A program made the position numbers and the translations under genes. A DNA stretch of 64,000 bases from Astropecten irregularis (lineage: Eukaryota > Echinodermata > Asteroidea > Paxillosida > Astropectinidae), in contig OZ020263.1 in NCBI GenBank assembly GCA_963971285.1, forward strand, positions 1 through 64,000. The letters are read 5' to 3'. The notes below the pieces were generated by a model. That model saw only the letters and a list, made by a program, of their open reading frames with translations, was not told where the DNA came from and ran no database searches. This document shows positions 14,101 through 53,222 of this stretch, in pieces. Position 1 is the first letter of the stretch, and every line of letters starts with the position of its first letter.

Positions 14101-15526
14101 AATCACAGGAGAGGTGAGACTCACCCTTGTCACTTGGGAAAAAACACTCTATCATCTCACTATCACTCTCACCTATCACTCTCACTCTAACTCTAACCTT
14201 GACTTGTCCGTGGGTGAGCCTGGCCCAGACTTGACTGTTGGAGTTGATACTGCAATCACAGGAGAGGTGAGACTCACCCTTGTCATTTTGAACAAAATAC
14301 CAATCTATCATCTCACTCTCACTCTCACCTATCACTCTCACTCTAACTCTAACCTTGACTTGTCCGTGGGTGACCCTGGCCCAGACTTGACTGTTGGAGT
14401 TGATACTGCAATCACAGGAGAGGTGATACTCACCCTTGTCACCTTGGAAAAGAAAACACTCTATCATCTCACTCTCACCTAAAAGAAAGTGAGAACAAGA
14501 TGAGATGAAAGATTAGATCTCACTTTTATCTCATCTTTTGCTAATTTACAAAGGTAAGACAAAAGTGAGGAAAAGGTTAGATGAAAGATTAGATCTCACT
14601 TTTATCTCATCTTTTGCTAATTTACAAAGGTTAGACAAAAGTGAGAAAAGGGTTAGATGAAAGATTAGATCTCACTTTTATCTCATCTTTTTCTCACTTT
14701 TTGTCTCACCTTGAAGGTGAGACAAAAGGTGAGAAAAGGTTAGATGAAAGATTAGATCTCACTTTTATCTCATCTTTTTCTCACTTTTTGTCTCACCTTG
14801 AAGGTTAGATGAAAGTGAGAAAAGGTTAGATGAAAGGTGAGAAAAGGTTAGATGAAAGGTGAGAAAAGGTTAGAAAAAAGGTGAGATGTAACCTTTTTCT
14901 CACCTGGGGGGCGTGGCTTGGACGGTTAGATAACAGTGACATCTAACCTTTTTCTCACATTCAAAGGTTAGACAAAAGTGAGAAAAAGGTGAGATAAAAG
15001 TGAGATCTAATCTTTAACTATTTTTCAAAGGTGAGACAAAAGTGAGAAAAAGGTGAGATAAAAGTGAGTATAACCTCTGTCTACCCTTTAACTTTTTTCA
15101 AAGGTGAGACAAAAGTGAGAAAAAGGTGAGATAAAAGTGAGTATAACCTCTTTCTAATCTTCAAAGATGAGACAAAAGTGAGAAAAAGGTGAGATAAAAG
15201 TGAGAATTGGGTGAGAAAAAAGTGACATGTAACCTTTTTCTAACCTTTGGAAAGTGAGATAAAAGTGACATCTAACCTTGTTTCTAAACTTTAACTATCT
15301 TTAAATGGTGAGACAAAAGTGAGAAAAAGGTGAGATGAAAGTTAGATCTAACCTCTTGACTAATCTTTAACTCTTTTTCAAAGGTGAGAAAAAAGTGACA
15401 GTCTAACCTTTTTCTCACCCTGTTCTCACTTCGAGTCTCACTTTTTGTAAACTTAGGGTCGGAAAACCGGGCTAAAAAAGTTAGACAGAGTGAGAAAAAG
15501 GGGAGTAACTTTTGGGCCAACCCATG
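11168..15526. repeat. 4.68-kb block, second copy
   Basis: Second copy of the block that starts at 6484, offset 4684 and then 4678 after the 6-bp deletion near 11910. It contains the partial 392-bp unit (11168-11515), the spacer modules, partial 155-bp units (12285-12715), a 155-bp satellite array (13530-14481) and the GTGAGA/TTAGAT block (14482-15523). It leads into the longest telomeric array of the window. Confidence 0.88.
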
Positions 15527-16610
15527 CCCCTAACCCTAACCCTAACCCTAACCCTAACCCTAACCCTAACCCCTAACCCTAACCCCTAACCCCTAACCCT
15601 AACCCTAACCCTAACCCTAACCCTAACCCTAACCCTAACCCTAACCCTAACCCTAACCCTAACCCTAACCCTAACCCTAACCCTAACCCTAACCCTAACC
15701 CTAACCCTAACCCTAACCCTAACCCTAACCCTAACCCTAACCCTAACCCTAACCCTAACCCTAACCCTAACCCTAACCCTAACCCTAACCCTAACCCTAA
15801 CCCTAACCCTAACCCTAACCCTAACCCTAACCCTAACCCTAACCCTAACCCTAACCCTAACCCTAACCCTAACCCTAACCCTAACCCTAACCCTAACCCT
15901 AACCCTAACCCTAACCCTAACCCTAACCCTAACCCTAACCCTAACCCTAACCCTAACCCTAACCCTAACCCTAACCCTAACCCTAACCCTAACCCTAACC
16001 CTAACCCTAACCCTAACCCTAACCCTAACCCTAACCCTAACCCTAACCCTAACCCTAACCCTAACCCTAACCCTAACCCTAACCCTAACCCTAACCCTAA
16101 CCCTAACCCTAACCCTAACCCTAACCCTAACCCTAACCCTAACCCTAACCCTAACCCTAACCCTAACCCTAACCCTAACCCTAACCCTAACCCTAACCCT
16201 AACCCTAACCCTAACCCTAACCCTAACCCTAACCCTAACCCTAACCCTAACCCTAACCCTAACCCTAACCCTAACCCTAACCCTAACCCTAACCCTAACC
16301 CTAACCCTAACCCTAACCCTAACCCTAACCCTAACCCTAACCCTAACCCTAACCCTAACCCTAACCCTAACCCTAACCCTAACCCTAACCCTAACCCTAA
16401 CCCTAACCCTAACCCTAACCCTAACCCTAACCCTAACCCTAACCCTAACCCTAACCCTAACCCTAACCCTAACCCTAACCCTAACCCTAACCCTAACCCT
16501 AACCCTAACCCTAACCCTAACCCTAACCCTAACCCTAACCCTAACCCTAACCCTAACCCTAACCCTAACCCTAACCCTAACCCTAACCCTAACCCTAACC
16601 CTAACCCTAA
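15527..16610. repeat. Interstitial telomeric array (CCCTAA)n, ~1084 bp
   Basis: This is the longest telomeric block of the window. It is uninterrupted except for several CCCCTAA units in its first 70 bp, and it passes directly into the 24-bp variant array. The matching block in unit B is about 301 bp long. Orientation is the same as the first array. Confidence 0.97.
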
Positions 16611-17426
16611 CCCCCACTCTCACTCTAACCCTAACCCCCACTCTCATTCTAACTCTAACCCCCACTCTCACTCTAACTCTAACCCCCACTCTCACTCTAA
16701 CTCTAACCCCCACTCTCACTCTAACCTTAACCCCCACTCTCACTCTAACTCTAACCCCCACTCTCACTCTAACTCTAACCCCCACTCTCATTCTAACTCT
16801 AACCCCCACTCTCACTCTAACCCTAACCCCCACTCTCATTCTAACTCTAACCCCCACTCTCACTCTAACTCTAACCCCCACTCTCACTCTAACTCTAACC
16901 CCCACTCTCATTCTAACTCTAACCCCCACTCTCACTCTAACCCTAACCCCCACTCTCATTCTAACTCTAACCCCCACTCTCACTCTAACTCTAACCCCCA
17001 CTCTCACTCTAACTCTAACCCCCACTCTCACTCTAACTCTAACCCCCACTCTCACTCTAACTCTAACCCCCAATCTCACTCTAACCCTAACCCCCACTCT
17101 CATTCTAACTCTAACCCCCACTCTCACTCTAACTCTAACCCCCACTCTCACTCTAACTCTAACCCCCACTCTCACTCTAACCCTAACCCCCACTCTCACT
17201 CTAACTCTAACCCCCACTCTCATTCTAACTCTAACCCCCACTCTCATTCTAACTCTAATCCCCACTCTCACTCTAACTCTAACCCCCACTCTCACTCTAA
17301 CTCTAACCCCCACTCTCACTCTAACTCTAACCCCCACTCTCACTCTAACTCTAACCCCCACTCTCACTCTAACTCTAACCCCCACTCTCACTCTAACTCT
17401 AACCCCCACTCTCACTCTAACTCTAA
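16611..17426. repeat. 24-bp telomere-variant array, 34 units
   Basis: The 24-bp unit begins CCCCCACTCTCACTCTAAC and ends with CTCTAA. About 34 units fill 816 bp. Units vary at few sites (ATTCT for ACTCT, CCCTAA for CTCTAA, one CTTTAA-like, one CAATCT, one TAATCC). The unit reads as four degenerate telomeric hexamers. Units A and B carry it with the same length and the same order of variants, unlike the adjacent perfect array, which differs greatly in length. Confidence 0.93.
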
Positions 17427-17510
17427 CCCTCACTCTAACCTTAACCCTCACTCTAACTCTAACCTTAACCCTCACTCTAACTCTAACCTTAACCCTCACT
17501 CTAACTCTAA
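17427..17510. repeat. Transition between telomere-variant array and 155-bp satellite
   Basis: Units of CCCTCACTCTAACTCTAAC with CTTAA endings repeat about three times and then merge into the CTAACTCTAACCTTGACTTG tail of the 155-bp unit. This places the satellite tail and the telomere variant in one continuous series. Confidence 0.7.
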
Positions 17511-18200
17511 CCTTGACTTGTCCGTGGGTGCCCATGGCCCAGACTTGACTGTTGGAGTTGATACTGCAATCACAGGAGAGGTGATACTCACCCTTGTCAC
17601 TTTGAAAAAAAAAACCTCTCTATCATCTCACTCTCACTCTCACCTATCACTCTCACTCTAACTCTAACCTTGACTTGTCCGTGGGTGACCCTGTCCCAGA
17701 CTTGACTGTTGGAGTTGATACTGCAATCACACTAGAGGTGAGACTCACCCTTGTCACTTTGAAAAAAAAACCTCCCCATGATCTCACTCTCACCCTCACC
17801 TATCACTCTAACTCTAACCTTGACTTGTCCGAGGGTGGCCCTGGCCCAGACTTGACTGTTGGAGTTGATACTGCAATCACAGGAGAGGTGAGACTCACCC
17901 TTGTTACTTTGAACAAAATACCACTCTATCATCTCACTCTCACTCTCACCTATCACTCTCACTCTAACTCTAACCTTGACTTGTCCGTGGGTGACCCTGG
18001 CCCAGACTTGACTGTTGGAGTTGATACTGCAATCACAGGAGAGGTGAGACTCACCCTTGTCACTTTGAAAAAAAAACTCTCTATCATCTCACTCTCACTC
18101 TCACCTATCACTCTCACTCTCACTCTAACCTTGACTTGTCCGTGGGTGACCCTGGCCCAGACTTGACTGTTCGAGTTGTTATTGCGATCCCCGGGGAGGT
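17511..18200. repeat. 155-bp satellite array, second block, about 4.5 units
   Basis: The same 155-bp family as at 8852-9803, with its own variants: CCCATGGCCCAG in the first unit, CACACTAGAGG in the second, GAGGGTGGCCC in the third, and a diverged last unit (TTCGAGTTGTTATTGCGATC). Frames on both strands are repeat-derived. Confidence 0.88.
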
Positions 18201-18819
18201 GAGTCTCACCCTTCATATAAGTTAGAAAAGAAAAACATCTAACTCTCACTCTATCTCTAACCTTGACTTGTCTCACTTTTGTCCAACCCAACCAACTGAG
18301 GGCGCCCTTTATTTAACGTTGAATGTTTATAACTCCGCCCCCATTGTCTGATTGACCTCTAATCTCGGGAGTGACCTCCTCTGACCCACCCACTCCACCT
18401 GAATTTCTTTTGAACCCTCAACTTTGACCTTTCACCTTTTTTATTTTGATAAAAAGACGTAGTTCAACCGTTTTGAGCTTCCGAGCCAAAACTTTGCGAC
18501 GTCATAACCGCGTCACCGGTGGGCCTTTAGCCATTATCTCCGGCAGTCTTATATAACTCTTTGACGTTTGACCTAAAAACTTTGATAGAAGTTAGCTGAA
18601 TAATTTTTCTTTCTTTATTGGAAATGTAAATGTCAAAGGCTATTTTGAAAACTGCGGGATTAACCGAAACCCTTACCCCTAACACCCAAACCCTAACACC
18701 CGACCCTCACCCCGACCCCCACAATACACCACACTGGATACAAAAATGCCATAATTTACCACACAGACGCAATGATTTCAGAACATCAAAACTTTAATGT
18801 ATTATAACACTTCAAAACT
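18201..18819. repeat. Spacer-module copy 3 and degenerate telomere-like tail
   Basis: About 18262-18560 is the third copy of the GAGGGCGCCC spacer module, including TTTGACCTTT and GCGACGTCATAACCGCGTCA. From about 18660 a degenerate telomere-like string follows (CCCTTACCCCTAACACCC, CCCTAACACCCGACCC). The remainder is AT-rich sequence without a recognisable gene. Confidence 0.6.
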
Positions 18820-20690
18820 CTTTAAATAAAATATACCTTGGCAAAACTTTTTGAATACAAGATTTAAAATAAAACAAATCGTTGAAACAGAAAATATAAA
18901 ATCAAACAGCTCAAAACCTTCAAACTCAAAATTTCAGAACTATCCAGGGCATTATTCTCATTATTTGTTAAACAGTTTCAAGTGATTGCTATGAAATACA
19001 ATCAACCATTACTTATCACCCACCCCGTCAGATAAAATTTACTCAAATCAAGCACTATCAATTCAAATGGTCATGTCTACGAGGGATACAATTTGCACTT
19101 GTTTCAATTTTGTATATACTTATATATCTTTTGTATGCTCTTTACTTTGTTAATTTACTTGTTTATAATAATGCCTAAAAGATATATTAATAATCATTTC
19201 CCTTTTACTTGCCTGCTTTCTTTTATCAAAAATAGATGTTCATCTCCATAAAACAATATCCATTACATCATAAAACAGTATAAAGGTCTTTAAATACAAA
19301 TATAAATACAAAACTCTTTGTAAATATAAATATAAATATAAATACAAAAGTCTTTTTAAATACAAGTTGAACAATTAAGAAATAATCACCCCAACACCTC
19401 ACATTTCAGACAAATTATACCAGTCAAATCAGGTAGCAAAATCACCATCTTCCACCCAAAAAACAAATCAAGTAAAATCACATGTGATTGTACAAAAATA
19501 TACTAAAGCATGGAACAAGATTTAAAATAAAACAAATCCTTGAAACAGAAATTATAAATCAAACACCTTTCAAACTCAAAATTTCAGAACTATCCAGGAC
19601 ATTATTCTCAGTGAAGTATTGGTTAAGATTTTGTGTTACAAGTGATTGCTATGAAATAATATCAACCATTAATTATCACCCACACCGTCAGATAAAATTT
19701 ACTCAAAACACAAGCACTATCAATTCAAATGGTCATGTCTACGAGGGATACAATTTGCACTTGTTTCAATTTTGTATATACTTATATATCTTTTGTATGC
19801 TCTTTACTTTGTTAATTTACTTGTTTATAATAATGCCTAAAAGATATATTTATAACCATTTTCCTTTTACTTGCCTGCTTTCTTTTATCAAAAATAGATG
19901 TTCATCTCCATAAAACAATATCCATTACATCATAAAACAGTATAAAGGTCTTTAAATACAAATATATAGTTTTGTATTGTATATGAATACAATACAAAAG
20001 TAAAAGACTTCTAGCAAGAAGTATTTTATTATTTGAGTGAGAAATTACCTCTTTCCAAAAAAAAACCTTACTTCACAGGGCGCTGTACAAAACTCTTTGA
20101 ATACAGAAAATTAACCGAACCCTTAAGTAGAAATTTTCAGAACTATCCAGGACATTATTCTCAGTGAAGTATTGGTTAAGATTTTGTGTTACAAGTGATT
20201 GCTATGAAATAATATCAACCATTACTTATCACCCACACCGTCAGATAAAATTTACTCAAAACACAAGCACTATCAATTGAAATGGTCATGTCTACGAGGG
20301 ATACAATTTGCACTTGTTTCAATTTTGTATATACTTATATATCTTTTGTATGCTCTTTACTTTGTTAATTTACTTGTTTATAATAATGCCTAAAAGATAT
20401 TTTAATAATCATTTCCCTTTTACTTGCCTGCTTTCTTTTATCAAAATAGATGTTCATCTCCATAAAACAATATCCATTACATCATAAAACAGTATAAAGG
20501 TCTTTAAATACAGATATATAGTTTTGTCTTGTATATGAATACAATTCAAAAGTAAAAGACTTCTAGCAAGAAGTTTTTTATTATTTGAGTGAGAAATTAC
20601 CTCTTTCCAAAAAAAAAACCTTACTTCACAGGGCGCTGTACAAAACTCTTTGAATACAGAAAATTAACCAAACTCTAAGTAAAAAATAAA
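18820..20690. repeat. AT-rich segment present in three diverged tandem copies
   Basis: Copies start near 18925, 19580 and 20130, at TTTCAGAACTATCCAGG. They share ATGGTCATGTCTACGAGGGA, TATCTTTTGTATGCTCTTTA and AATGCCTAAAAGATAT. Copies 2 and 3 also share the tail ending CAGGGCGCTGTACAAAACTC. Spacing is about 655 and 545 bp. The 141-residue plus-strand frame in copy 2 (19488-19913) is not open in the other copies, so I do not call it a gene. Confidence 0.8.
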
Positions 20691-20796
20691 TAATCAAACA
20701 CCTTACACTTACAAAAATATATTTAAAGGCACTGGACATGTTTGGTAATTGGTAATATTTTTCTGTTTAGATTTTAAATTATCCCTGGCACTATTT

Positions 20797-20802
20797 TTTA
20801 TT
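20797..20802 (-). terminator. Candidate poly(A) signal of the tyrosine recombinase gene
   Basis: AATAAA on the minus strand lies about 131 bp beyond the recombinase stop codon at 20933. It is the first canonical signal downstream of the stop that I found. AT-rich context makes chance occurrence possible. Confidence 0.45.
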
Positions 20803-20932
20803 TTAAATATGAGAAAAATATGTGATTGCACTGAAAATTATTTACTGATTACATACCCCCATCACAGATTAATCAAATCAACATGCTGTACTTCCTAATA
20901 CAGTATGCATCAAGAAAAGACTCGCTACCTCA

Positions 20933-23900
20933 CTACTTTTCATCTGATGGCTCCATTGCATTCTTGATACTTGCTGCCGTTTTCAAAACGGACACATTTG
21001 GCGACTCCATGTTGTAGTATTCTGTGGCAGTATGTTCTGTATGTCCGAGTGTCCTTGCGAGGCCCCTGCAACACAGAGACAGAAAGAGACAGAAATAGTC
21101 AGATGTATGTCAGGTCGCAATTTCTAACCACCTCACAGGGGAGCGACTAGTTGTCTTCAATGCCATCTGGATTCGGCTGCAGTTTTCAACACTGTCAGGT
21201 TGTAGTACATCAACTGCAAAAACTGTATGGCCAAGTGTATACTTACAAAACTCCTGCAACAAAGAGACAGAAAGAGACAGACAAAGACAGATCTAACCTC
21301 TCAGGTAAAAATCCTTGCTACACGTACCGTCTGTCGATATCCGGGTCTTTTGCCAGATATGTGACGACAGCTTTACGAAGAGCCGTAGCTCTCACTCCTG
21401 TGTAGCCAGACACTTTCTGAACAGCCTCAAGGCCCTTTGAGAAATTACTACTATCTATCGGACCTCCTTCGCTGTTGAAGAACAGATAGTCACCCTTGGG
21501 TTTGCAGGGCGCTTTGGGTCTAATCGACTCGATGAACTGCCGTATGATCTTCTTGCTGGTACCCTCCAAACAAACTCTGTTCAAGATAGCAACAGGTTAG
21601 AAACAATAAAATGAAAAGGGTAAGATTTTAAAGTTTGCAAGGTGCATTGATAAATGGGAATAAGTTTGGGGTAGCGCCAGTTTTGTGAGTTAGTGGGGTT
21701 CTGAAAAGAACAAAGGAAGCGCTACTTTTCAGACACTTTGCTCTCTACATCATCCAGGGAAAAAGCGATAAAAAGGGCATTGCCATCTGTCTTCTGTGAC
21801 ACATATTTTTGAAAAAAAATGCTGGATAGTAGAAATGACCTTAGCACTAGCCCGACGGTCATTGTCTAGTAAAAATAGCCGCGGGCTAGTAAAATGCACC
21901 ACTTAGCTAGCCCGGCGGACTAGTAAAAAAAATCGCCGCCACGCCTTAAAATCATGCCGCCACATTTACATTTTTTACTGTACAGTAAATAATAACAACA
22001 GAAATAATCTGGAAACAATGAGAATCACTTGATTTTCGATTCTAACTTCGAAACTTTCCGATGATTTCGCACGAACTGTCAAGTTTGCGACGCGAGGCAA
22101 CTCAAATTGACATACATTAAACGGATGTACTAAACCGAGCAGCGAGTCGACCGGCCTTGCATGCATGCAAACAAACACGTGCACTGCAAGAGACCTACTT
22201 TTGCTGCATACGTTCTGCACTGCAAGAGACCTACTTTTGCTGCATACGGTCTACGCACGTGGTAACAAATCTAGTTACGCGAAGTTTCGACGAAATTCTT
22301 CCAAAAATTCGGCATTTTGAATGAGCTTGCTTTATTCAAATTACATTTTCGATGATTTATCGTACATTCACATGAAATAAGAAGTCATTTTTGGAAATTA
22401 TGAGGAACAAATGCCTACAAAAAATTGAGTTTGCGATTGCAACTGTTAGCACTTATCTTGGTTTGCCACACCGGGATTTTACATTAACGTGATGTGCCGT
22501 TACGTGTGTGATGGCCGTGATGGGGCTAATGCTTCGTGCGGCCGGTCAACAGTCCGCTCGGTCATGCTACCAACGTTACGTACCTTGGTTAACTTGGGAA
22601 ACTTTTAATGTTCACCTGTTATTGAATGATTTTCGCTCTTAGCTAAGATTTACTTATAATTTGTCATCTGTCATCACGTTTGGAATGAATGTAATTTTCT
22701 TTTGATTTCTCTGCTAGCTAGGCCCATAAAATAATATTTTTTAATAGGGGACTCTAGTTGTATTGCAAGATTTAATGTGTTTATTCTCCAGTCAGTCTTT
22801 TATTAAAATAACCTTGTGGTAAATTCAATAAAGGGCTAGTAAAACTTGCTGCGGGCTAGTAAAAAACTCAATATATTAGCCTGGTGGGCTAGTTAAAAAA
22901 AACCTTAAGTGCGAGGCCTCATAATTGAGAGACTCACCTCAAGGAACCATGACTGCTTGAAGTCTTGTGGACCCGGTTCAAGAGGATCACTGGTTTGTCG
23001 TCATCCCAATTCCCATGTGAAGGGGTTAGGGCATCTTGAAGTTTGATGTTTGTCACACCACTTGGTCGAGAAACAATACCAATGAATGCATGTGCCAGGG
23101 CAAGCCTCATAGCTAGGAGGTACCGAGAACGGGGTAAACACTCGTCGCTGCTTTTGGCCTCATGAAGAACGTCATTAAAGATCTTCATGACTTGCTCCCC
23201 AACAAGAATCTTCTTGTATACCTTCTTTAGATCTAGTACAGGGCGATCTCTCTCCTCGTCTTTGGAGGCACGACTTTCACTTTTCTTCTTGTGCCCGAAC
23301 TCTGTTAAACGGCCCTTGATAAATGCGACATACTCATTAGACATCTTCACTGAATGCATTGTACTGGCATATCTTGCAGCCCGACTGAGGTAGTCCAGCT
23401 TGTTATACAACGATCCTGCACTACAGCCAATGGCCTGATACCGTGAGACCCATTTGTTGATCAGTTGCTGTTGTACCAGCAAATTCCATGGCACCTCTTC
23501 AGTGGTTGCTATGTTTTTACCTTCATTCCCGAAATAAAGATACTTACTCACCACCTGGACCACTTCTTTCGGATGATTGGATAATGGCAGGGCTCTCCCT
23601 GTGTCCCGAACATATTGCTCAAAATCTTTGAATAGTTCAGTTTGGTACGCCCCATTGAAACCGCCCAACTCTGCGGCGACTCGAGGCGTACTATGAGCGA
23701 TATCCTTGGCAGGGGAAACAAAGGACGTGCTTAGACTTGAAAAGGAACGCTGGTGGGTCATGCAAGTCGCACTGGCAGGTGAAGAAGAAAGATCCTTCTT
23801 CAATGCCTGGGAAGGCGGAGGCGATGCCTGGGAAGGCGGAGGCGATGCCCGGGAAGGCGGTGTCGAACCTGATGAGGGGGAAGGCAAAGGTGATCGCGAA

Positions 23901-26900
23901 GCCCTGGATGACAGAGGCGGTCTTGATGCCCGGTAAGACGGAGACGAAGGCGATGCCTGGGACTGTGTATTCGCTGCCTGGGAAGGTGTCGAACCTGATG
24001 AGGGGGAAGGCAAAGGCGATCGCGAAGCCCTGGATGACAGAGGCGGTCTTGATGCCCGGTAAGACGGAGGCGACGGCGATGCCTGGGACTGTGTATTCGC
24101 TGCCTGGGAAGGTGTCGAACCTGATGAGGGGAAAGGCAAAGGTGATTGCGAAGCCCTGGATGACAGAGGCGGTCTTGATGCCCGGTAAGACGGAGGCGAC
24201 GGCAATGCCTGGGACGCTGCCTGGGAAGGCGAACTCTTTGCCGGGGAAGGTGATACAGATGAATAAGTGCGTTCATGCACCCTAGCCATGTGATTGTAAA
24301 CATTTGCATATGTTTGCCCAGGCCGGCAGCCTAACGGACAACTCCTGCGGTTGCCGAGTGATGCAGCTCTCCTTAAGCGTACCTCCCTCAGTTTTGCTAA
24401 GACATCCTTCTGGACGTTGTCTTCCATCTGTTCGAATTTCTTCACCAACTCATCCCCTTCATCCAAGACAACAGACTCTTCGCCTGAAGAAACTTCTTCA
24501 CTACTACTGTCGGAGCTGGTGAACAGCGTAGGTGTAGTCCGACCTGCAGAGCAAAAAAATTATAACTTTTACTGGCAGAATTTCAATCAATAATGGCAAT
24601 TAAGTGAGAAGCGCCGGGCTCCAAATCAATCTGATGTAAAATTTTGAGCCCCCAAAATGCACATGGGTCAATAAAAATATTAAAGAAACAAGTGCAAGGC
24701 TGCAGGGAAGTATCTCATTCAGTGGCCGTCAAGCTGAACCCTATAAGACATGTACGTAAAAAAGTATAAACAGACGCACGGTGGTTTCTGTACTCCAGTA
24801 ATGGACGACCTAAAAACAAGATGGCGGCCCCCATTAACGTTATAAAATCACAGTCGATCTAATTTATTAAAGGTATTATGTTAGATGTACTTACTTAGTC
24901 CCAAATTATACTACAGATTTCTGATAGGCAGCCGAAAACTTGGACATTACGTAGGGGGGCACAATAAGGACCCCCCCCCCCCCCCCCCCCCGGTCCCCAG
25001 AAGTAAATAAAAATAAAAACGGTCCTGGTAGGGTTAACCTACTTTACCTTTCTCTTCTTGTTCTTTGTCTTCTTCTTCCTCTTCTTGTTCTTCTCCGTCG
25101 GAGTCTGACTGTGACGACTCTAAGTCTTGCTTCGAGGTAGGGTCTCTGCTTCGAGGTAGGGTCAGCTCTTCTTTGTCTTCTTCTTCCTCTTCTTGTTCTT
25201 CTCCATCGGAGTCTGACTGTGACGACTCTAAGTCGTGTATTGACGAGAAGCAAAATCTCCGTCTGCTTCGAGGTAGGGTCAACTCTTCTTTACCTTCCTG
25301 TTCTTGTTGTTTGTCTTCTTGTTGTTTTTCTCCGTCTGAGTCTGACTCCGAGTCTTGAATTGTCATGGATGAAGCATCTCCTGAATCTTCTGGATCCTCC
25401 TTTCCATCGGATTCATCATCCGATGAATAGTCCACCAGACTACCTCCAAGGCCAACTCCAAGACCCTGAACACTTTGACTGAAAGAATGGGTGAAATGAA
25501 AAATAAAAAAATAAAAATAAATACTTTGTCTATACCTAGGTCAAACAATGGCAAACACGGGATTAGACTTTTGAACCATGGTGACCATTATCATTTTAAT
25601 ATCTTTTTTAGGATTATTTTGAGACAGATAGGCCTACTATGAGCGTTTGGTAAACAAAAATGCCCCACATTAAAAGTGTTGGTGAACCCATTTGGTGAGA
25701 TTGTTTGGTCGACGTACCTTTGATCTTCTTGACCGGAAACTCGTACTCGTAGTTTTTTGGATTGAGTCAACACAAACTCCTCCTGCCAAAAAACAAACAC
25801 AGGATTTAAGTCATCAATTTGCTTTTTGAACTGCTTCTGTGAAACAACACGAAATATTATAATTGTTTGGAATGTTTGGGGGATTAAGTCGGAGCTGTAC
25901 AGGGTTTTCATAAAGGGTTGTCCCAAAGAGTTGATAAGGGTTGTCAAGGTTGTCACAAAGAGTTGATAAAGGGTTGTCATTTTATTGTGGCTGATCATAT
26001 AATATATACAGCCTGCTAACCAATATCTGCCTAAGCATTTATTTACACACAAGGCTGTACATGTGCCTACTCAGAAACTTATTGTTTATTAACACATCTG
26101 GAAATATTTCAATGGCAACAAATGCATGAAGAAATCACTCACAGAAACACTTTGTATACTTTGGTACTTTGGTAGTTTTCCATAATTGAACAATTGAACA
26201 AAAAAAGTTACTTCTTGGAAAATAAAAAATACTGAACATAGGCCTAACGTTAAATCAAATTTGACAAAAGTACCATGTCTGAAATTGAAAGAATGTTGTC
26301 ATTGTTGACTAAGCTTCAAAATGATACATAACTTGTTGAAAAAAATGAGCCTGAGTTGAATAATAAATTTGCGCTGTAATTTTAGAAAGCAAGCACCCGA
26401 GGGGCAGTTGTACGGTGAGGCTTACATTTACATGTAGGGCCTACCACTACCAGTACCAGTATAAAACACAGTTACACTTACTTACAGACTTTAGTCAACA
26501 ATAAAAAAATTTTCTTCGACAATTGTTCTCTGCCTAAACGGCAAGAAATCACATCAAAATAGCTTTTTAGTAGCAACCTTTGGAGAGAAAATCTCGGAAG
26601 TGTTGCTGTGGACGCAATGCGATTTTTTCGCTGGAAATGTACACTTCAAAAAATGCAGTTTTTCAGGCCAATAATACTAACCAAATTAGGCCTAGGCCCC
26701 TATGTACACGAAACGTTCCAAAATATGGCTGACTGAGCGTGAATGAAGCAAAGGATTGTGGGATACATTTCTGGTCTAAAAATAGTCGAAAGGGGGATTT
26801 CCCCCGTGACGCACTATGGGCTAAGAAACAAACGAAATGTTATGTCTGACCGATCAATGCTGTTTTTCTGACCTTTTATTCTAAAAAAGTGTTTGTGAAA

Positions 26901-26987
26901 CTTCGAATTGAAAGGCATTATGTTCTTACATACCTCCTCAGAATTAGGCCTAGTTGTTCTCTTTGACTTTTGCGTTTCCATGTCCAT
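20933..26987 (-). CDS. Six-exon tyrosine recombinase (Crypton-like), unit A copy
   Basis: Exons on the minus strand: 26987-26934, 25782-25718, 25478-25048, 24543-22938, 21576-21328 and 21065-20933, together 845 codons plus stop. All introns are GT-AG (donors GTATGT, GTACGT, GTAAAG, GTGAGT, GTACGT) and the phases agree at every junction, which strongly supports the model. The protein has a short basic start, an acidic Ser/Asp/Glu repeat region (about 50-183), a C2H2-like finger (Cys252, Cys256, His268, His273), Pro/Ser repeats (about 280-440), a helical core-binding region, then the catalytic domain: Arg676 (SRPSGV), Lys710 (VHKTSSSHG), Arg786 (TALRKAV), His810 and nucleophile Tyr819 (LGHTEHTATEYYN). 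Thr783 stands where the HxxR box usually has His. Such enzymes cut and rejoin DNA through a 3'-phosphotyrosine. No reverse transcriptase is nearby, so Crypton or a domesticated derivative is likelier than DIRS. The start is the first ATG of exon 1; a further 5' non-coding exon is possible. Confidence 0.85.
21150..21253 (-). pseudogene. Relic duplicate of the recombinase last exon, inside intron 5
   Basis: Between exons 5 and 6, a second acceptor (TCTTTGTTGCAG, preceded by the same GTCTCTTTCTGTCTC-type tract) leads into sequence aligning with exon 6: ACACTTGGCCATACAG against ACACTCGGACATACAG, GTACTACAACCTG against ATACTACAACATG, and GTGTTGAAAACTGCAGC against GTTTTGAAAACGGCAGC. In one frame it reads TLGHT, in another MYYN, so a frameshift separates His from Tyr. 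Joined to exon 5 in phase it gives an unrelated 31-residue tail and a stop. It looks like a tandem exon duplication that decayed. Confidence 0.65.
21828..22910. mobile_element. ~1.1-kb insertion in recombinase intron 4, edged by GGGCTAGTAAAA repeats
   Basis: Both edges carry several copies of a GCGGGCTAGTAAAA motif (left about 21870-21930, right about 22830-22900) in direct orientation. The interior has CpG-containing sequence unlike the surrounding intron, including a 33-bp direct duplication (about 22178-22250, ACTGCAAGAGACCTACTTTT). I find no coding frame of note; the 81-residue frame at 21975-22220 has no domain. I read it as a non-autonomous element of unknown class. Exact ends and target duplication are unresolved. 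Confidence 0.45.
23800..24240 (-). repeat. Coding minisatellite in recombinase exon 4 (Pro/Ser repeats)
   Basis: About three and a half units of roughly 120 bp encode repeats of PPLSSRASRSPLPSPSSGS and SYRASR with a TPSQAANTQSQAS linker, plus shorter SQASPPP units. Unit length is a multiple of 3, so copy-number change would not shift the frame. Open frames on the opposite strand (23737-24285) and in another minus frame (23800-24309) arise from this periodicity. Units A and B carry the same copy number. Confidence 0.85.
24971..24991. repeat. Poly-C run, 21 bp, in recombinase intron 3
   Basis: An uninterrupted run of 21 C, the same length in unit B (from about 48906). Mononucleotide runs of this size usually mutate fast and are error-prone in sequencing, so equal length in two units suggests a very recent common origin. 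Confidence 0.9.
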
Positions 26988-27141
26988 GATGACAAGCTGG
27001 ACAGTGAAACTTGGAAGGAATAAATGCCAACGCCGTTTCTCACCTCTCTTCCTTCCTCGGGCATGTCAGGCCATGCTGCATCTGCGCGCTTCACTAGTTG
27101 GAACCAGTTCCTATTGGTACTGGTCCGTGTGACGCCAGATG

Positions 27142-27242
27142 TTAGTCTGGTTACCTACCCAAAGATTCCCTGACGACTCTTATTAAAAATCTATATTTGA
27201 CAGACAATAGTCGGGCGCTTTTTGGGTCCGGGAACCAGACTA
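27142..27242. mobile_element. hAT-like miniature transposon (101 bp) with 8-bp target duplication
   Basis: The ends are inverted: TTAGTCTGGTTACC on the left and GGAACCAGACTA on the right, with CCAAAG/CTTTTTGG inside. They are flanked by the 8-bp direct repeat GCCAGATG (27234 side: 27134-27141 left, 27243-27250 right). An 8-bp duplication is the hallmark of hAT elements. It has no coding capacity. It lies upstream of the recombinase first exon. Confidence 0.7.
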
Positions 27243-27250
27243 GCCAGATG

Positions 27251-28238
27251 TGTAACCAAAGTTGTAACCGCGTCCCCAGGGTGTTTCGAGCAGTACGAGA
27301 TGGTTGGAAATAAAGTAAACCATGGGGACGAGGTTGCCAAAGTTGTAGTCTTAGCCAAGGACGTCAGTGATCGATAGTGGATAGTGTAATATAATGCTCT
27401 CGTGAACTACATTTTAGTCCGTGGGCCGAGGCCTTTTTTTCGCTCAACACGCGGTCGGGTCTTCGGAATCTTTTCTAATATATCACATTCGATAGATAAA
27501 AAATAACAAATGCATAAAATGGTTGTTCCCACGCTGGGAAATTGCTCCCAACTTCAAAAAGAATAATTGTTAAAGACCGAAATAAAATCGAAAATGATAG
27601 CAGTGAGAGAGACTAGGAAAATACCCAATAGGAAGCGTTGTTTAAGCCGTTGCGGCAGAAGCAGCCAATCAAGCTCCACGTTACATGAACGCAGAAGTAA
27701 ACAACATGATGTCGTCTGCTACGAGTCGATGTCAGACACCGACTGCGTTGAAAATTCCCTAGAAAGACATATTTAGTACTTTATGCACTTTCAAACTGAT
27801 GGAAGCTTAAGTGCAGCAGGGTTTACTGACATCTGGAAGACCGTTCTCGACAGGCCAGTATGTCCAGATCACCCGAAATCGCAATTTCCAAGGCCAGTTC
27901 ATCACTGAACATTGCACCGTGTGACCGTCGAGACAGGGACGTGCTTATGTCATGTTTAGGGTCCTATTCTAGTCTTTGAAATTGAAGTGGCTTAAATTAG
28001 AGTTCAACCTATTAAATAATGATCATAAAATGATGTAGGAGTGAGTGTACATGCATCATTTCATGATCATCGGGAGTGGTGTACAACTGCTCGCAACGCA
28101 TGCCTACTGAAGAACTAGGTGCACTGTGGATGAACATGTACAGTAATTAAAGATGTGCATCATCCCCTTTATTTTGGGTACTCATTTAGGGTGGCATTAC
28201 TAATTGAATTAATGAACAATTTTTTTCCAAATCTGTAG
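27251..28238. other. Intergenic region between divergent genes
   Basis: This lies between the recombinase start (minus strand) and the candidate plus-strand gene. It contains relatively CpG-rich sequence and a CCAAT motif (27665-27669) near ATG codons at about 27685-27710, but no promoter can be fixed. A short frame (27567-27776) is extended in unit B, where a 3-bp deletion removes an in-frame stop; I see no domain in it. Possible first exons of the plus-strand gene should be sought here. Confidence 0.35.
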
Positions 28239-28979
28239 TGCTGGAGTGGGTCAGCCGGGAGCCTCGAGAGTTTCAGCAACAGTAGGCTGTGGAGTGTGGA
28301 CGTTAGTGAATGGCTGCTGGATCTCCCAATCCCAAAGAATGCTGGTTATCATCGGTAAGATAATAATAGGATGGGCTCTATTGGGAGACTTTTGAGAACC
28401 GGTCTTCAAGTCAACAACGCACGGGCACACACAAACAGCGCAGGCGCAAAACAACGCACGCATGCTCACAATTGCGTGCGCGTGCGCTGTTGACTTGAAG
28501 ACCGGTTCTCAAAAGTCTCCCATTACTACACACTCATGTCATGCAATTATTGAATTGTTTAATTAATCATGTAACTGTCAAGTGATTTATATCGGCGAAG
28601 AATTTTAGTCGTTACTCATGCTGTATAGTGTCAGTACATGTCCATGTGATTGAAAACGGATTGAATCTAGGGTTTGTAATTAATAGGAATAAAGCATGGC
28701 AGCATTTGGAACTACTGTATAGCACAAGTTGCACAACCAAGCGTTGACCTGCAAATTGAAAAGATGTATTACTTTAGCAAATACATGTACAAGTTCATGC
28801 ATCTGATTACATTTTACTCTGTTCGTGGAACAAAGGATTATTTTTTTCTCTTGATCCTTTCTTGTGTTTTAGAACCTGAAGCAGCCCCGGAGATACTTCC
28901 ACCAGTTCCACCCCTGGAAAAACTAGGAGACTCTGCTCTGATACACAGAGGACTTATGTGCCTGCTGCACAATCAGTGA
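28239..28979 (+). CDS. Partial plus-strand gene: last two exons, product unknown
   Basis: Exon 28239-28354 has a good acceptor (TTTTTTTCCAAATCTGTAG) and donor (ATCG before GTAAGA). The next exon 28873-28979 follows TTTCTTGTGTTTTAG and runs to a TGA. In the phase that joins them (one base left over, two supplied) the tail reads EPEAAPEILPPVPPLEKLG and continues to a stop, 34 residues after the joint codon. The first exon is open in that phase and also in a second one that reads SVDVSEWLLDLPIPK, so the true frame upstream is unsure. No upstream exon or start is identified. The intron contains a foldback miniature transposon. I recognise no family. Confidence 0.35.
28383..28521. mobile_element. 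Foldback miniature transposon, 139 bp
   Basis: A perfect 34-bp terminal inverted repeat starts GGGAGACTTTTGAGAACC and continues imperfectly for another dozen bases around a GCAC-rich centre. It is flanked by ATT on both sides (28380-28382 and 28522-28524), consistent with a 3-bp target duplication. It has no coding capacity. Perfect ends suggest recent insertion before the macro-unit was copied, as unit B has the same element. Confidence 0.75.
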
Positions 28980-29042
28980 ATGTTCTGCCCAGATATACTC
29001 TGCATGAAAGAAGGTGCAGAGCAACAAGGAAGAGAAGACCTG

Positions 29043-29189
29043 GGGCCGATTTCACTAACGCTTTGCGATCATCGTAAAGCCCAAATCCATCACATAACCG
29101 AAAATTGATCGCTACTCTTTGTAGGAATTTTCTGTTTAGCGATGTATTTGGGCATAGCGATGATCGCAAAGTGTTAGTGAAATCGGCCC
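29043..29189. mobile_element. Miniature transposon with GGGCCGATTTCAC ends, 147 bp
   Basis: Long inverted ends (GGGCCGATTTCACTAACGC on the left; on the right the reverse complement with one mismatch, then GCGATCATCG inside). They are flanked by CTG on both sides (29040-29042 and 29190-29192). GGGCC ends with a 3-bp duplication resemble PIF/Harbinger non-autonomous elements, although these usually duplicate TWA. Confidence 0.6.
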
Positions 29190-29675
29190 CTGAACCTCTG
29201 GTCACAACGTGCACCACCATCAATGCACAAATATTACAAGGATAATATCAATAACTTTTTACTATGTACATGATAATTGAAAAACCCTGTCTCAGATTTG
29301 CAACTCTAGTATAGTCTTGATCGAAGTACTTCTGTAACAGTGTTGTTATAGACCCAAACATTAATTTCTTGATGGTTATCTAAAAGTTGGCGCGCTCAAC
29401 AGCCTGTAATTGTTTTGTCCTACCATGTTAAATGTCAATTCACTAACTAGTTTAAAGCATTCCACACTACTTTAAATGGGCCTGTCATCAGACAGCTGTA
29501 TTAATGAATTCCATTTTGTTCACCGTATGCACAATATAAGAGTTGGCCTATATTGATGTATTTTGAAAATCATCAGAAACGCTGGAAACACAACCTCGTA
29601 GTAAAGAAAACTGAAATATGTAATAACTCTTTTATTTTAAAACAAAAAATAAAGTATTTATTCGACAGAAATCAC

Positions 29676-29996
29676 ATTGAAATTGTATAGACCTTTCTTT
29701 TGCAACGTCACGATGTTCTTTTTTACCAACCAGTATAGGCAAAAGTATGGAAAGCCATCAGTGCAAAACCAAAACAGAATATCGAAACTTTGTATTAAAT
29801 AAAAAGGAAAATATTCAAAGCAGTGCTCAATTTGCAGAATTCAACAACGGGAACCATTTGTCTTAAAGAGAATTACCTTAAAAAAATTATTTAGATCAGA
29901 ATTTATGTCAACAAAATTGAAGGTTTTTGTAACTTTTGCCGCCCTTGCCAAGCAGAGCGGCTTATTTATCAACAAAGGAAAGGTATATTATTGACA
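29676..29996 (-). pseudogene. Decayed relic of the small membrane-protein gene, unit B
   Basis: Identical in my reading to the relic at 280-600, with the same lost splice sites and early stop. Confidence 0.4.
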
Positions 29997-30298
29997 ACTC
30001 TAGTGTGACCCATTTCGCTTGATCGCATCACATAATATTTAAAAACGTTTTTATTATATTTAAAAAGTTTTATACTTGGATAATATATTATATTTAAAGA
30101 GTTTTGTACTGTCATATACATTATTTGTATACAAAACGTGCTCAACTTTGAAGTGGGTGAATTTATGCATTTTGGTGTCCAGGGCCCAATTTCATCGAGC
30201 TGCTCACGATAGTGCTTAAATAATAATAAGAAATACAACTGCCACAAGTGTGGTGTTTTGAAAAGTGCATAATGTTGCTGTTTCCCATCTAACCCACC

Positions 30299-31674
30299 GA
30301 AGTGTCGACCGGTGAGATAGGTCGAGAAAGGTCGACCGGTAAGACAGGTCGACCGCTGAGATATATCGAAGCACGGCGTTCCCGTTTAGTTGGCTCATGG
30401 AGGAAGGAAAACAGAGCTCAACGCGCGCTGAATAATGGTCCCGTACGCTGAGACAGGTCGACCGCTGTACGCATGCCGTGTATCGAAGCGATTCACGGCG
30501 TTCCCGTTGGCTCAACGCGCGCTGAATAGGACGGTCCCGTCCGGTCAGACAGGTCGACCGATCGTGTGCTGCATACATGCCGTTAAATGAAGCGATTCAC
30601 GGCTTCCACGTGGGCTCATCACGCGCTGGATATAGTCCGAGAGCCAGCAGGTTTTAAAGATCAACTCCAACGATTTCAATTCGAGTGCAAAAGGTTTAAA
30701 GTCTGCCATGTAGGGCTTCCTTCATGCTTAGACAAGCACAAGAAGTGCCCCTTAAAGTCACCCAAAGATTCACTTTAATCATAATTCGGAGTGCAAGCAT
30801 GAAACAAGTGTCAGAACATGGAGGTAGAAATCACCCTCCGTGGTCAGAATGATCCTTTCACTACCCTGAATCCAAAAAATACCTGTTAAGAAAATCTATT
30901 TATTTATCACACATTCGATTCACTTAAAATACTTATATCAGCAAACCTTACGCATACAAAAATTCATAAAATAATTCACAGAATAATTCACAATACGAAG
31001 GCAAAGAACGACAATGTTCAATCTTTGAATCAAACAAATTAAAGGTAATAGCATAGTTTGGTTTTTGTCAAAGAAATGCAGATTCATGGGCAAAAATATC
31101 AGGGAAGATGCAGCAACAGTCATCTGTGAAAATGTCAGTCCCATACGGTGCCCACTTTTTGAGAAAACAGTGAAAACGGACACAGTATTTCTTAAGTCTT
31201 TTCTCTTTTTTTTTTGATCTTTTAAAAGATCAAAAAGATTTTCGGTCGTTGATTTACTAATTTCTGGATAAAAACACAATTTCGGGCGGAAACATTTTAA
31301 CTGTATGTTTCTACCACCAAAATCTTTATACCCTGTATAATTTATAGGTAAATATGTGAGAATATCTGTTTCGGTATGCTACCAAAGTATGATACTACCT
31401 TTAATCAATTTCATTGACTGATGCTTTTTTCTTTTCTTTTTGAAGGCAAAGAAACGTAGGCCAATCCAAAAATAGCTTCCTCCGAACAAAAGTCACGGCC
31501 CTTATATTCAGCGCGCGTTGAGCCCGTCGGGAACGCCGTGAATCGCTTCGATACACGGTATGTATACACCGGTCGACCTGTCTAAACGGTCGACCTGTCT
31601 CAACGGTCGACCTGTCCCAACGTTCGACCTGTCTCAAGTCGAGTTGTCCCACCGGTCGACTTGTCTGACATTCC
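30299..31674. mobile_element. GGTCGACC inverted-repeat element, unit B
   Basis: The same arms and core as at 903-2278. I see no difference from unit A. Confidence 0.55.
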
Positions 31675-31718
31675 TCACAACTTGTCATTAATTCAGAATT
31701 GCCAATTTGGCTATCACC

Positions 31719-31955
31719 ATGCAGTCGAGCGGTGCCGTAGAGAAAGCTACACAGCCCATCTGTATAACTGGACATACATTAAGTAAGGAATTCAACCAAA
31801 TCTTATTCCAGATGAAGTGCAAGCACCTTGTGTGCATATTTTGTATGAGGCGGTACGTAATGCCTTTACTTCCGCATGTTCTGTACCCTGCCATGATCCC
31901 TCGTCGTGGCGGGCCGTACAACTGTCACAAGTGTGGTGTTTTGAAAAGTGCATAA
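31719..31955 (+). CDS. RING-like reading frame, unit B
   Basis: 78 residues, same protein as at 2323-2559 with the same Cys/His pattern and the same missing second Cys. Confidence 0.4.
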   Translation: MQSSGAVEKATQPICITGHTLSKEFNQILFQMKCKHLVCIFCMRRYVMPLLPHVLYPAMIPRRGGPYNCHKCGVLKSA

Positions 31956-33642
31956 TGTTGCTGTTTCCCATCAAACCCACCGAAGTGTGGTGTTTTACAA
32001 AGTATGATGGTTGTTTTGGTTTTCTAGTTCTAGAGTTCTTGTTTTTAAAATTTAAAAATTAATTCGCCGTGATTGGCACCAATCGACTGTAAATATGGTG
32101 ATCACAATTTTCTAAAGACAGGTTACAGATACATTGTGTTAATTGAATGCCCCCCCACCCATTAATAACATTAAGGAATTGCTAAAGTGCAAACATCTGC
32201 TTAACTGGTCAGCAAGTTATTTTATTGACTTTTTCAATTAAAAAAACCCACAAAGATAGGGAGACGGCCAACATAGGGTTAGATAGCTCAGCTCTAAAAA
32301 ATAGCTTCCCGTAGGCAAACAATCGGTCCTTACAGTGCACTTGCATACTCCACAATACTAGGCGGTCTTCGCTTAAAAAGTTAGGACAGGAATACGGCAT
32401 TTGCCCTGTAAGCAAAGGATGGTGATCGCAAGGGTAGAATTTGGCGGTTAACAGAACCATGTAATTGGGCCCAGAACAACTAGTCACTAGCCGTGTCAGC
32501 GTAGAATGCCAAGTAATAGTCGCACAAAGTATGCACGTGCACAAGCAAAAATTCCCTGCCAACCTGTAAATACGCTGTTGTAAGCACGGAATTCCCTAAT
32601 CCTGTAAATGCTGAATCTTTGCTTACGGTAACCTGGTTATGAATTTGTACATCATTCTTGTACCTAAGTAGCCCCTCCTAACCTCTTATTCGGAGTAGTG
32701 AGAGCACTAGAACACCCATTAAAAAACATCACCCCTCAACATCAGGGTCCAACTTCATGGCTCTGCTTCCCTTGATTTAAAAAGCCTTCATGGCTCTGCT
32801 CATTTAAACAAAATTTTGCACTTACGTAAACTGTTTACACGTTAGCGGTTTTTTTGGCTTGTGCGCGTGCATACTCAACAATTGTGGGCAATCTTTGTTT
32901 ACAAAGTTAGCGCAGAAATTTGGCATTTGCCCTGTAAGCAAAGAATGGTGATAGCAATAGCAGATTAAGGCGGGTAACAGAACCATGAAAAAAAAAACAT
33001 TAATTCGATACAAGATTTAAATTATTTCTCAGTGGTTGCTTAAAAATAAAACCAACAATTACTGACACACCCCACACCCAAATAAATTACTCCAGATCTC
33101 AAACACCATGTTTAAGTATAAAACTCTTTAGATTAGGCAAAGCTCTTTCAATAGACCATGCGCCCCTTGTTTTAAAAAAATTGCCGAAGTCGTTTCTTAC
33201 CTATCAGTATGCATGCTTCTTATTTTCAATAAAATGTGATTACGAAGTGACATCACAGGTCAAATCGTACAAAGACCTGCAACATCACTCCGAAATAAAA
33301 TTATTAGGCAAAACCCGGATGCGCACGCATACCGCAGGCCAGAGAGGCGATGTTTTTGTTTAGCCGTAACAACAAAGGGCACATTGTCTATACAGGTATA
33401 ACATTACTTTTGAGAAAAAAAAACATATAAAAAAGGGCATTGATTTGTTGAAAGAATTTAAAAAGTTCTCAGCGATTGCTTACAATTAAAACCAACAATT
33501 TCTGACCCACCCAACTTCCAAATAAATTACGACAAACATCATCCACTGAAATGGTCAGGTCTGAGAGAGGGCTGCAATACACAGTTTAAATTAACAAAGC
33601 AGCCACTGACATAAATTTTAAAAACTTAGTTAAAGAGCACCT

Positions 33643-33768
33643 TTAGATGTCCTCCGCAGAGCTAATTTTATTTTCGCTGATATCTACTTGGGTCAAGTGG
33701 GTGGGTTGTATTCTGCCATGTCCGCTGTCAGGCTGCCGGTACGGCCAAGTTCTTGCCAGATCAGATGC
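33643..33768 (-). other. Candidate 3' exon of the small membrane-protein gene, unit B
   Basis: Same sequence as 4247-4372: an acceptor followed by a 41-codon open frame. The link to the membrane frame is equally tentative. Confidence 0.3.
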
Positions 33769-33992
33769 CTGCAAAAAAGACAGTCAGAAAGAGTGAGACG
33801 AAAGGCGGAACTTATATATTGAAACGTCTAGGCCCTAGTAGTACACTGTAATGACCATTCGGTATGGCCATTCAAAAAACTAAAACTTTGTATGTCAGTT
33901 TTCACACTTGATAACTTGATTTTTTATGCATTTCAGATGTATAATCAGTGACACGCTTTACATAAAAAAAAAGAAAATAATCCATACCACCG

Positions 33993-34292
33993 TTACACAA
34001 TACACTCGTACAGGTTGTCTTCTGCCAATCGGTTATGCAGTTGTTGTTGCAGTGGCCTAAACCTTCTTACTCTTCCATAAGGCCTAGGCCCACGAGGGAT
34101 GGGTGGAGCCTGCTGCATGGTCCGTGCAAGTTGAACTAGAGGGCGATTCGCCAGTGAGGTGACGTTACGCTGAAGTAGGTTGATTCTTCTTATCAGTTTA
34201 ACGTAGGAACAAAACACCATCATTAGGGCAGTTATTCCCACAACAGCAATACTTAGATGGATCCAGAACAGGATATGACACTCTCCTATCAT
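33993..34292 (-). CDS. Small single-pass membrane protein, unit B
   Basis: 99 residues, identical to the unit A frame at 4597-4896. The upstream 37-residue frame and candidate 5' exon are present at 34289-34621. Confidence 0.4.
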   Translation of the reverse strand: MIGECHILFWIHLSIAVVGITALMMVFCSYVKLIRRINLLQRNVTSLANRPLVQLARTMQQAPPIPRGPRPYGRVRRFRPLQQQLHNRLAEDNLYECIV

Positions 34293-35133
34293 GGTTGTGG
34301 TTGCTTGCAAAAACAACAACGGACGCAGGCCAACTTTCGTAATGCCTTAGCAGCTACCGTTGTCACTGGCCCTTTTCTGGCCGACAAAAAGTGAAAACCC
34401 ATCGCTGCAAAACAAAAAGAAACATTAAGAAATGTTACAAAAATATTCAGAAAAGTGCTCAACATATTAAAAACGAAAAAAACAATAACTGCTAGCTTTG
34501 AAAAACATCTGGAAATTGTTGCTTTGTATCCAAAACTACCTTTAAAACCAGCACGGTTCGGTTTGTTTATCAACGATACTAGGAAGGACCGGCTGTGACA
34601 ACGCACAAGACGTCCGGGGTATTACGGGTACCAGACTAAAGAGAGCTCAATAGAGGGCGCCTGTCTATTGCAATAAATCAACTCCCATGGCGACCAACGC
34701 TAAATGATAAATATTCAAAATTACTTAAAAATATTTTTAAAGTCTCTCAGCCTCTTAAAAACCAACCAAACATATTTTCCGACAACTAAACGTCAGATTT
34801 ATATTTAATTTCTGGCAGGTCAGCCCTTTGGAATTTTTGCTAATTACCCCAGAAAAAAACACCCCCGAAAATGTGCTTTTTTCAAAAACCGACTTGCCGC
34901 CAGTTTTCATGAGGCACCCCTCCAATTCCCAAGCTTAATAGGACCAACATTAATGCCCAAATTTATCAAATCTCCTCAAAAGTTGAAACCCAGAATGACC
35001 AGGTTGTGATGGATTGTGTGAATTACACAATCTATTAGTTGCATGACCCCCAAAACGTTAAAAATAAGTTGTTGGTTTACAGATATTATTATCATAAGTA
35101 GCTTGGCGCATGAACTTTTCTCGATTTAGGCTA

Positions 35134-36226
35134 GTGCACCCCAATAGACGCTTGCATTTTGAATACACCAAAATGGACAAATTTTTTTATATTAAAAATA
35201 ACAAGGACATCACTCGGTCACCCGATCCTGATACATTTCCGAGAGTGTGCGATGACGAATACTCATGCCAAATATGAAAGGGGTGGCACGTTCGGTTCCA
35301 AAGTGACGTGACTTTGTAAATTTTATAAAATGCCATTAAGTGTGTACAAACGTCACAGCTTCAGACCCCTTCAAACACAAAAAAATACGCAACTGCCAAA
35401 TGATGGAACCTGTCAACCCAATTTTTTCAGCAATAGTCTTGACCGATGCAGGGAACGTTTGAAGAATTTATCCGATGTGGGCACCCTCCACTTCGGTAGT
35501 GACGAAGGAGAATCTACTCTACACTCTCCACCAATAGTCGCGTGCAGAGGAATACACCCAAATTTGACACATTTTTGTATACCAGAAAAACAACAAGGAC
35601 ATCACTCGGGCACCCGATCCCAATACATTTCCGAGAGTGTGCTATGACGAATAATCCTGCCAAATTTGAAAGGGGTGACACGTTCGGTTCCAAAGCGACG
35701 GGACTTTGTAAATTATATAAAATGCCATTAAGCGTGTACAAACTTCACAGCTTCAGACCCCTGCGAACACAAACAAATACGCAACTGCCAAATGATGGAA
35801 CCTGTCAACCCAATTTTTTCAGCAATAGTCTTGACCGATGCAGGGAACGTTTGAGGAATTTATCCGATGTGGGCACCCTCCACTTCGGTAGTGACGAAGG
35901 AGAATCTACTCTACACTCTCCACCAATAGACGCGTGCATGAGAATACACCCAAATTTGACACATTTTTGTATACCAGAAAAATAACAAGGACATCACTCG
36001 GGCACCCGATCCCAATACATTTCCAAGAGTGTGCTATGACGAATAATCATGCCAAATTTGAAAGGGGTTACACGTTCGGTTCCAAAGCGACGGGACTTTT
36101 TAAATTATATAAAATGCCATTAAGCGTGTACAAACTTCACAGCTTCAGACCCCTGCAAACCCCAACAAAATTCGCAACTGTCAAACGATGGCACCTGTCG
36201 ACCCATCGGTCACTCTTAATATTACT
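35134..36226. repeat. 392-bp tandem repeat, unit B
   Basis: Same three units as at 5738-6830, without visible difference. Confidence 0.8.
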
Positions 36227-40241: not shown

Positions 40242-40244
40242 ATG

Positions 40245-41361: not shown

Positions 41362-41445
41362 CCCTCACTCTAACCTTAACCCTCACTCTAACTCTAACCT
41401 TAACCCTCACTCTAACTCTAACCTTAACCCTCACTCTAACTCTAA

Positions 41446-53159: not shown

Positions 53160-53222
53160 ATGTTCTGCCCAGATATACTCTGCATGAAAGAAGGTGCAGA
53201 GCAACAAGGAAGAGAAGACCTG

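Follow-up and report, generated by a model that had tools for sequence, protein, structure and literature searches.

Arrays of subtelomeric units with telomeric spacers are already known from yeast and, among animals, as mouse mTALT and worm TALT. Yeast Y' arrays carry interstitial telomeric tracts, and the Y' element amplified by recombination in Type I survivors of Saccharomyces is a tandem subtelomeric unit of 5.2–6.7 kb that bears an open reading frame, for a helicase, often with telomeric tracts of varied length between its copies (PMC13177704). Mouse mTALT units likewise lie head to tail in a single orientation with telomeric-repeat flanks, as does TALT of C. elegans, and the number of mTALT copies differs naturally from one mouse strain to another (PMC7889907). 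Telomere-associated tyrosine recombinases (YRs), typically with a C2H2 zinc-binding domain, are described for the majaniviruses, which insert into telomeric (TAACC)n repeats and for which some Oxford Nanopore Technologies (ONT) reads span one genome end, a telomeric tract and the other genome end (PMC10871703). Here we describe the first 64,000 nucleotides of contig OZ020263.1 of Astropecten irregularis (assembly GCA_963971285.1), hereafter the window, as a head-to-tail array of a 24-kb unit that is separated by long CCCTAA tracts and that carries an intact, five-intron YR gene in every full copy seen.

The window, whose array structure emerged from self-comparison and whose tracts emerged from tandem-repeat analysis, is the start of a 14.3-Mb contig (C28) in an assembly of 475.7 Mb and 168 contigs, and a second array starts the 38.2-Mb contig C8. 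Three full units of 23,937 bp, two on C8 and one on C28, are exactly identical, and a partial unit at C8:1–7705 also matches the C28 unit letter for letter (Table 1). A genome search with the unit body (window 30900–36300) returned 100 matches, the best 40 of 8727 candidates being scored; among the matches listed, the full-length body occurs five times and only in the C8 and C28 arrays, the remainder being partial unit copies, a dispersed repeat (mostly query 1–774) and a 540-bp piece present twice on C11. The 155-bp minisatellite of the unit gave 127 genome matches, on C8, on C28 and around one place on C11, so that it is apparently private to the unit, and we rejected a general subtelomeric satellite.

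We then counted as tracts all runs of at least five CCCTAA in 184 kb, of which 104 kb belong to C28 and 80 kb to C8. Nine were found, no two of equal length (314, 1107, 324 and 840 bp on C28; 606, 492, 639, 904 and 214 bp on C8) and all in the same orientation, and none of at least five repeats in the TTAGGG orientation was present in the same 184 kb. Thus, as in Y' and TALT arrays, units lie head to tail with telomeric tracts of one orientation between them. Each of the nine tracts is preceded by the identical right end of the unit, and the exact 27-base junction occurs nine times in the genome, always forward and always on C8 or C28 (zero occurrences for the backward control). What follows a tract on its right varies: a full unit, which opens with variant telomeric repeats and the minisatellite; a shortened unit; or, for the innermost tracts, non-unit DNA, which differs between C8 (near 67221) and C28 (near 65976). 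Both arrays have the strand orientation of a left chromosome end and stand at the starts of multi-megabase contigs.

Two distinct truncation points were identified among the shortened units, at unit position ~19,268 (C28:11163) and at ~20,312 (C8:56366 and C8:62163), and at both the intact sequence has CCCT where the telomeric tract starts, the pattern expected of broken ends healed by telomerase. Truncations abutting telomeric repeats are a difference from Y', none reportedly having been found among 15 short Y' elements (PMC13177704). On C8 the shortened unit is duplicated in tandem, with a separate tract for each copy, and the two copies are 97.5% identical in their first 2.8 kb and 100% identical in their last 1.9 kb. 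Because this doubled unit and tract lack the YR gene, the copied piece need not hold it.

Table 1. Coordinates of the array, its telomeric tracts and its coding segments in the window (strand relative to the contig).
Feature	Position	Strand	Remarks
Distal unit, cut by contig start	1..10849	+	From unit position 12786 onward; 99.98% identical (C28 1–11154)
Telomeric tract	10850..11163	+	314 bp; 52 CCCTAA
Shortened unit	11164..15527	+	Starts at unit position ~19,268, telomeric repeats joined at ACCCT; 99.8% identical (C28 11163–15833)
Telomeric tract	15528..16634	+	1107 bp; 181 CCCTAA, grading rightward into variant repeats
Repeat unit	16612..40548	+	23,937 bp; letter-identical to C8:7986–31922 and C8:32089–56025
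155-bp minisatellite, left side of unit	17471..18213	+	Right-side copy at 38253–39196
YR copy 1, exon 6	20933..21065	-	H810, Y819, stop TAG; GT-AG join
YR copy 1, exon 5	21328..21576	-	R786; GT-AG join
YR copy 1, exon 4	22938..24543	-	C2H2-like pattern, Pro/Ser repeats, R676, K710; GT-AG join
YR copy 1, exon 3	25048..25478	-	Acidic region; GT-AG join
YR copy 1, exon 2	25718..25782	-	GT-AG join
YR copy 1, exon 1	26934..26987	-	ATG; GT-AG join
Possible second coding segment	33993..34346	-	One membrane helix by eye; largely retained in two C11 copies; no Pfam match
Constant right end of unit at telomeric tract	40228..40254	+	Also at 10832 and 15510
Telomeric tract	40246..40569	+	324 bp; 51 CCCTAA, grading into the same variant repeats as the 15528..16634 tract
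Next unit, continuing past window end	40547..64000	+	99.9% identical to 51293; 51533–63393 98.7%; then partly expanded minisatellite
YR copy 2, 847 aa	44868..50926	-	Exons 50926–50873, 49723–49659, 49419–48983, 48478–46873, 45511–45263, 45000–44868

We consider it probable that this is a subtelomeric unit, comparable to yeast Y' or mouse mTALT and carrying an intact YR gene, that has spread by recombination through telomeric repeats. At the left of a full unit, telomeric repeats grade through variant repeats into the unit's own minisatellite, as they do at a real chromosome end; at the right, the unit ends in a constant sequence, to which the telomeric tract of its inner neighbour is attached. 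A chromosome end that is short or broken would invade the tract next to a unit, whether on its own chromosome or on a different one, and copy that unit outward by break-induced replication. With each round the array would gain one unit plus a tract whose length is new; in some cases an end would break within a unit and be healed by telomerase, with further rounds following. The right junction would be constant because invasion occurs in the tract that adjoins it, and tract lengths would vary, and shortened units be duplicated anew, because ends copy a telomere-flanked unit through its tracts. The intact YR gene travels with every full unit seen and may or may not assist the spread.

Exact identity of three 23,937-bp copies, together with the start of both contigs inside an array, could also be read as the work of an assembler that multiplied one or two true units through telomeric repeats. 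This is improbable, since such an artefact would need many distinct junctions to yield nine tract lengths, two truncation points, an insertion of ~240 bp seen in one copy, a copy diverged by 1.3% and differing DNA at the inner edges.

The gene in the unit is encoded in six minus-strand exons that join, through five GT-AG introns of consistent phase, into an 845-aa protein ending at a TAG stop. A first-pass annotation of copy 1 had proposed this structure, and joining the exons from 26987 to 20933 bore it out, but that annotation had included neither the second copy at 50926–44868, whose protein differs from that of copy 1 solely by an in-frame insertion of two residues, nor the telomeric tandem array around both. 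Members of the YR superfamily share the catalytic set R, K, R, H/W, Y at a usual spacing. All five residues previously assigned to this set are present in order (R676, K710, R786, H810 and Y819), and a residue count gave the annotated distance of nine from His to Tyr; Thr783 (T-A-L-R), on which the annotation was silent, occupies the position of the usual His of the first box (HxxR). The acidic N-terminus and Pro/Ser repeats were likewise evident on direct inspection. As for the C2H2-like finger, a C-x3-C-x11-H-x4-H pattern, called by spacing, is present at residues 252–273, in a protein for which Pfam gives no zinc-finger match. Exon 4 sits in an open frame of 541 aa, far beyond chance expectation given that the longest in 200 random sequences of 8 kb with similar dinucleotide make-up was 204 aa.

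Profile searches pointed to the same superfamily. With the full protein, Pfam Phage_integrase matched at E 1.4e-5 and 25.4 bits, just under the curated cut-off of 27.1, and with the C-terminal 372 aa alone it reached 27.6 bits, just above it. The NCBIfam models XerA and PRK00283 also matched the YR region (E 1.4e-4 and 4.3e-4; 21.5 and 19.6 bits), both far under their cut-offs, as did two PHROG integrases, the PHROG and NCBIfam matches together spanning 1e-4 to 8e-4. A solved-structure search with the 372-aa part gave four weak matches, one of them an integrase (3nkh, E 0.78), and fold prediction for the exon-4 part alone, without an alignment, yielded an uninformative model (mean predicted local distance difference test score, pLDDT, 34.9). 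Profile match and catalytic residues support assignment of the predicted product to the YR superfamily and of the locus as a complete multi-exon YR gene.

The annotation had offered two identities for this gene, which it took to be either domesticated or a live transposase of Crypton type. Three Crypton YRs are reported as similar to DUF3504 (PMC3212892), and the YR described here shares with CryptonA its being an animal tyrosine recombinase but differs in having no DUF3504 match, in its five introns and in its place within a 24-kb telomere-flanked unit. The profile search that the annotation had called for was thus positive for Phage_integrase and negative for DUF3504: Pfam-A at E up to 5 listed the former only, and a Crypton is not supported. 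That search was run without a Crypton positive control in a Pfam copy that presumably includes the DUF3504 model. The choice between the two identities is not supported, and it is further undercut by the genomic distribution of the gene. Four complete copies were found, all within the same 24-kb unit, and it is this unit that multiplied; because all four share the 24-kb surroundings and only fragments occur elsewhere, no shorter transposon or element ends can be drawn around the gene.

A genome-wide protein search with the YR yielded 19 matches, 12 of which fall in the four genes on C8 and C28, at the three C-terminal exons of each. The others are five fragments on C11 (one weak, E 0.46), a sixth on C30 (53% over 70 aa) and, on C1, an open frame of 671 aa (E 0.25), and no complete gene outside the two arrays is among the 19. 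Two of the C11 fragments retain part of exon 5, intron 5 and exon 6, with deletions of 8 and 39 bases in exon 6, and are therefore decayed DNA copies. A multi-exon gene with its R, K, R, H and Y retained in near-identical intact copies, and with decayed relatives on C11 and C30, could be a host gene, now domesticated, in a chromosome-end neighbourhood that has been duplicated, its YR having taken on a cellular role; this we regard as very improbable, the matches outside the arrays holding no complete gene and the gene copies being too alike for selection to be measured.

In two other C11 fragments, unit position 17802 is joined to 4017 and part of the possible second coding segment survives, with an early stop in one of the two. 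C11 also has, at 21.318 Mb, a degraded piece of the minisatellite. In the C11 relics (L041, L042 and L053, at 19.49 and 21.32 Mb), interior pieces of the unit are joined in an order unlike that of the unit, which suggests that a tandem or circular form lost DNA by deletion, or that the pieces were rearranged later. A check of seven stretches on C11, C30 and C1 revealed neither CCCTAACCC nor its complement.

The join of 17802 to 4017 could be obtained by deletion from a circle or a tandem, which would fit a unit that is a mobile element whose zinc-finger YR recognizes telomeric repeats, a CCCTAA-bearing circle recombining into telomeres to give concatemers with telomeric spacers. The intact YR with its C2H2-like pattern in full units, and a right junction that is identical beside two differing non-unit sequences, would also fit, and there is the majaniviral precedent of C2H2 YRs that insert in telomeric repeats (PMC10871703). 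We nonetheless hold this origin to be unlikely, since the left end is not fixed but grades from telomeric into variant repeats, the shortened unit was also duplicated despite lacking the YR gene (trans action is conceivable), and the genome has many other YR genes (at least 68 matches to one of them), so that a YR in the unit may be there by chance.

Nimaviral YRs, of majaniviruses and others, share with this case a YR typically with a C2H2 domain, a link to telomeric repeats and possible concatemers, but complete majanivirus genomes measure 278–401 kb against 24 kb for this unit (PMC10871703). Here, the YR lies in a telomere-flanked unit and its finger is called by spacing only, unmatched in Pfam. 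A tblastn search of 50,697 phage records was negative, and an IMG/VR scan gave two pattern matches, neither of which codes for a relative; no relative of this YR was found in either collection. That a non-viral animal zinc-finger YR recognizes TTAGGG repeats and, alongside telomerase, extends chromosome ends by whole 24-kb units is, in our estimate, quite unlikely. Recombination and YR-driven addition may work together.

Several observations weigh against spread by recombination through telomeric repeats, the reading we favour. Neither contig, although its array may mark a true chromosome end, starts at a bare terminus: C28 begins at unit position 12786 and C8 at 16233. Copy number and contig assignment of the identical units depend on the assembly, and because identical 24-kb copies are hard to order, both may be wrong. 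Site-specific insertion would likewise yield a constant junction, and a YR from a full unit could act in trans on a shortened one. Finally, relics of the unit on C11 are without telomeric tracts in the stretches examined, which recombination through such tracts alone leaves unexplained.

The 671-aa frame on C1 (C1:12834259–12836271, within L043, C1:12832822–12836514) is a single open frame. Its N-terminus is acidic, two fingers look C2H2-like by eye, and its C-terminus is like that of a YR, being 25% identical over ~250 residues to the YR of the unit; Pfam gave this C1 frame no YR match at E up to 5. A search with it returned at least 68 matches on many contigs, many of them long open frames (best 66 of 154 candidates scored). 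This single-exon family resembles the YR of the unit in its acidic N-terminus, in fingers that look C2H2-like by eye, in its YR-like C-terminus and in having T-x-L-R where H-x-x-R is usual, and is unlike it in being encoded in one open frame, in matching across many contigs and in lying outside the unit. Because such YR genes are common in this genome, a chance passenger YR inside the unit is plausible. A tandem array of another YR gene was seen near the start of the 537-kb contig C3, with matches at C3:38,997–149,770: 23 are on the minus strand, spaced mostly by 3.55 or 4.93 kb and each with stops within the frame read (perhaps introns), and one further, more similar match is on the plus strand at 113,264. 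Two neighbours are 99.8% alike across 2.45 kb (L054, C3:91500–97500). As a second telomeric case this array was set aside, CCCTAA/TTAGGG being absent in the 6 kb read and the contig being 537 kb.

Second genes were sought among 10 open frames of the unit, nine of which had no Pfam match and one of which had two weak ones (E 0.27 and 0.74); an Rfam scan gave nothing that reached the gathering score, and no tRNA was found. Within intron 5 of copy 1, 21140–21270 is a degraded second copy of exon 6 (its translation resembles ...YYNLTVLKTAA), and upstream of exon 1 a near-perfect inverted repeat, or foldback, was seen by eye at 28378–28530. Positions 30900–31680 are a portion of a dispersed repeat that matches many contigs and has internal 17-bp repeats. 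The insertion of ~240 bp at 51294–51532, missing from the other copies compared, has inverted ends (GGCCCTTTTCC...GGAAAAGGCCC) and looks like a short non-autonomous DNA transposon.

Compared with the systems known so far, this unit is larger than Y' (24 kb), lies in an animal genome and carries a tyrosine recombinase instead of a helicase, and unlike mTALT and TALT its array is found in a genome assembly, on two contigs, where every full unit holds an intact protein-coding gene. No report of such an array, or of a cellular telomere-directed YR, was recognized in a limited title and abstract search of the open-licence literature. A clear array in another assembly, letter-identical across two contigs and with truncations that look healed, would make telomere recombination in an animal germline directly testable, and the intact recombinase in each full unit is a specific candidate for a non-viral recombinase directed at telomeres. 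If this YR does recognize TTAGGG repeats, a site-specific recombinase would help to build telomeric arrays alongside telomerase.

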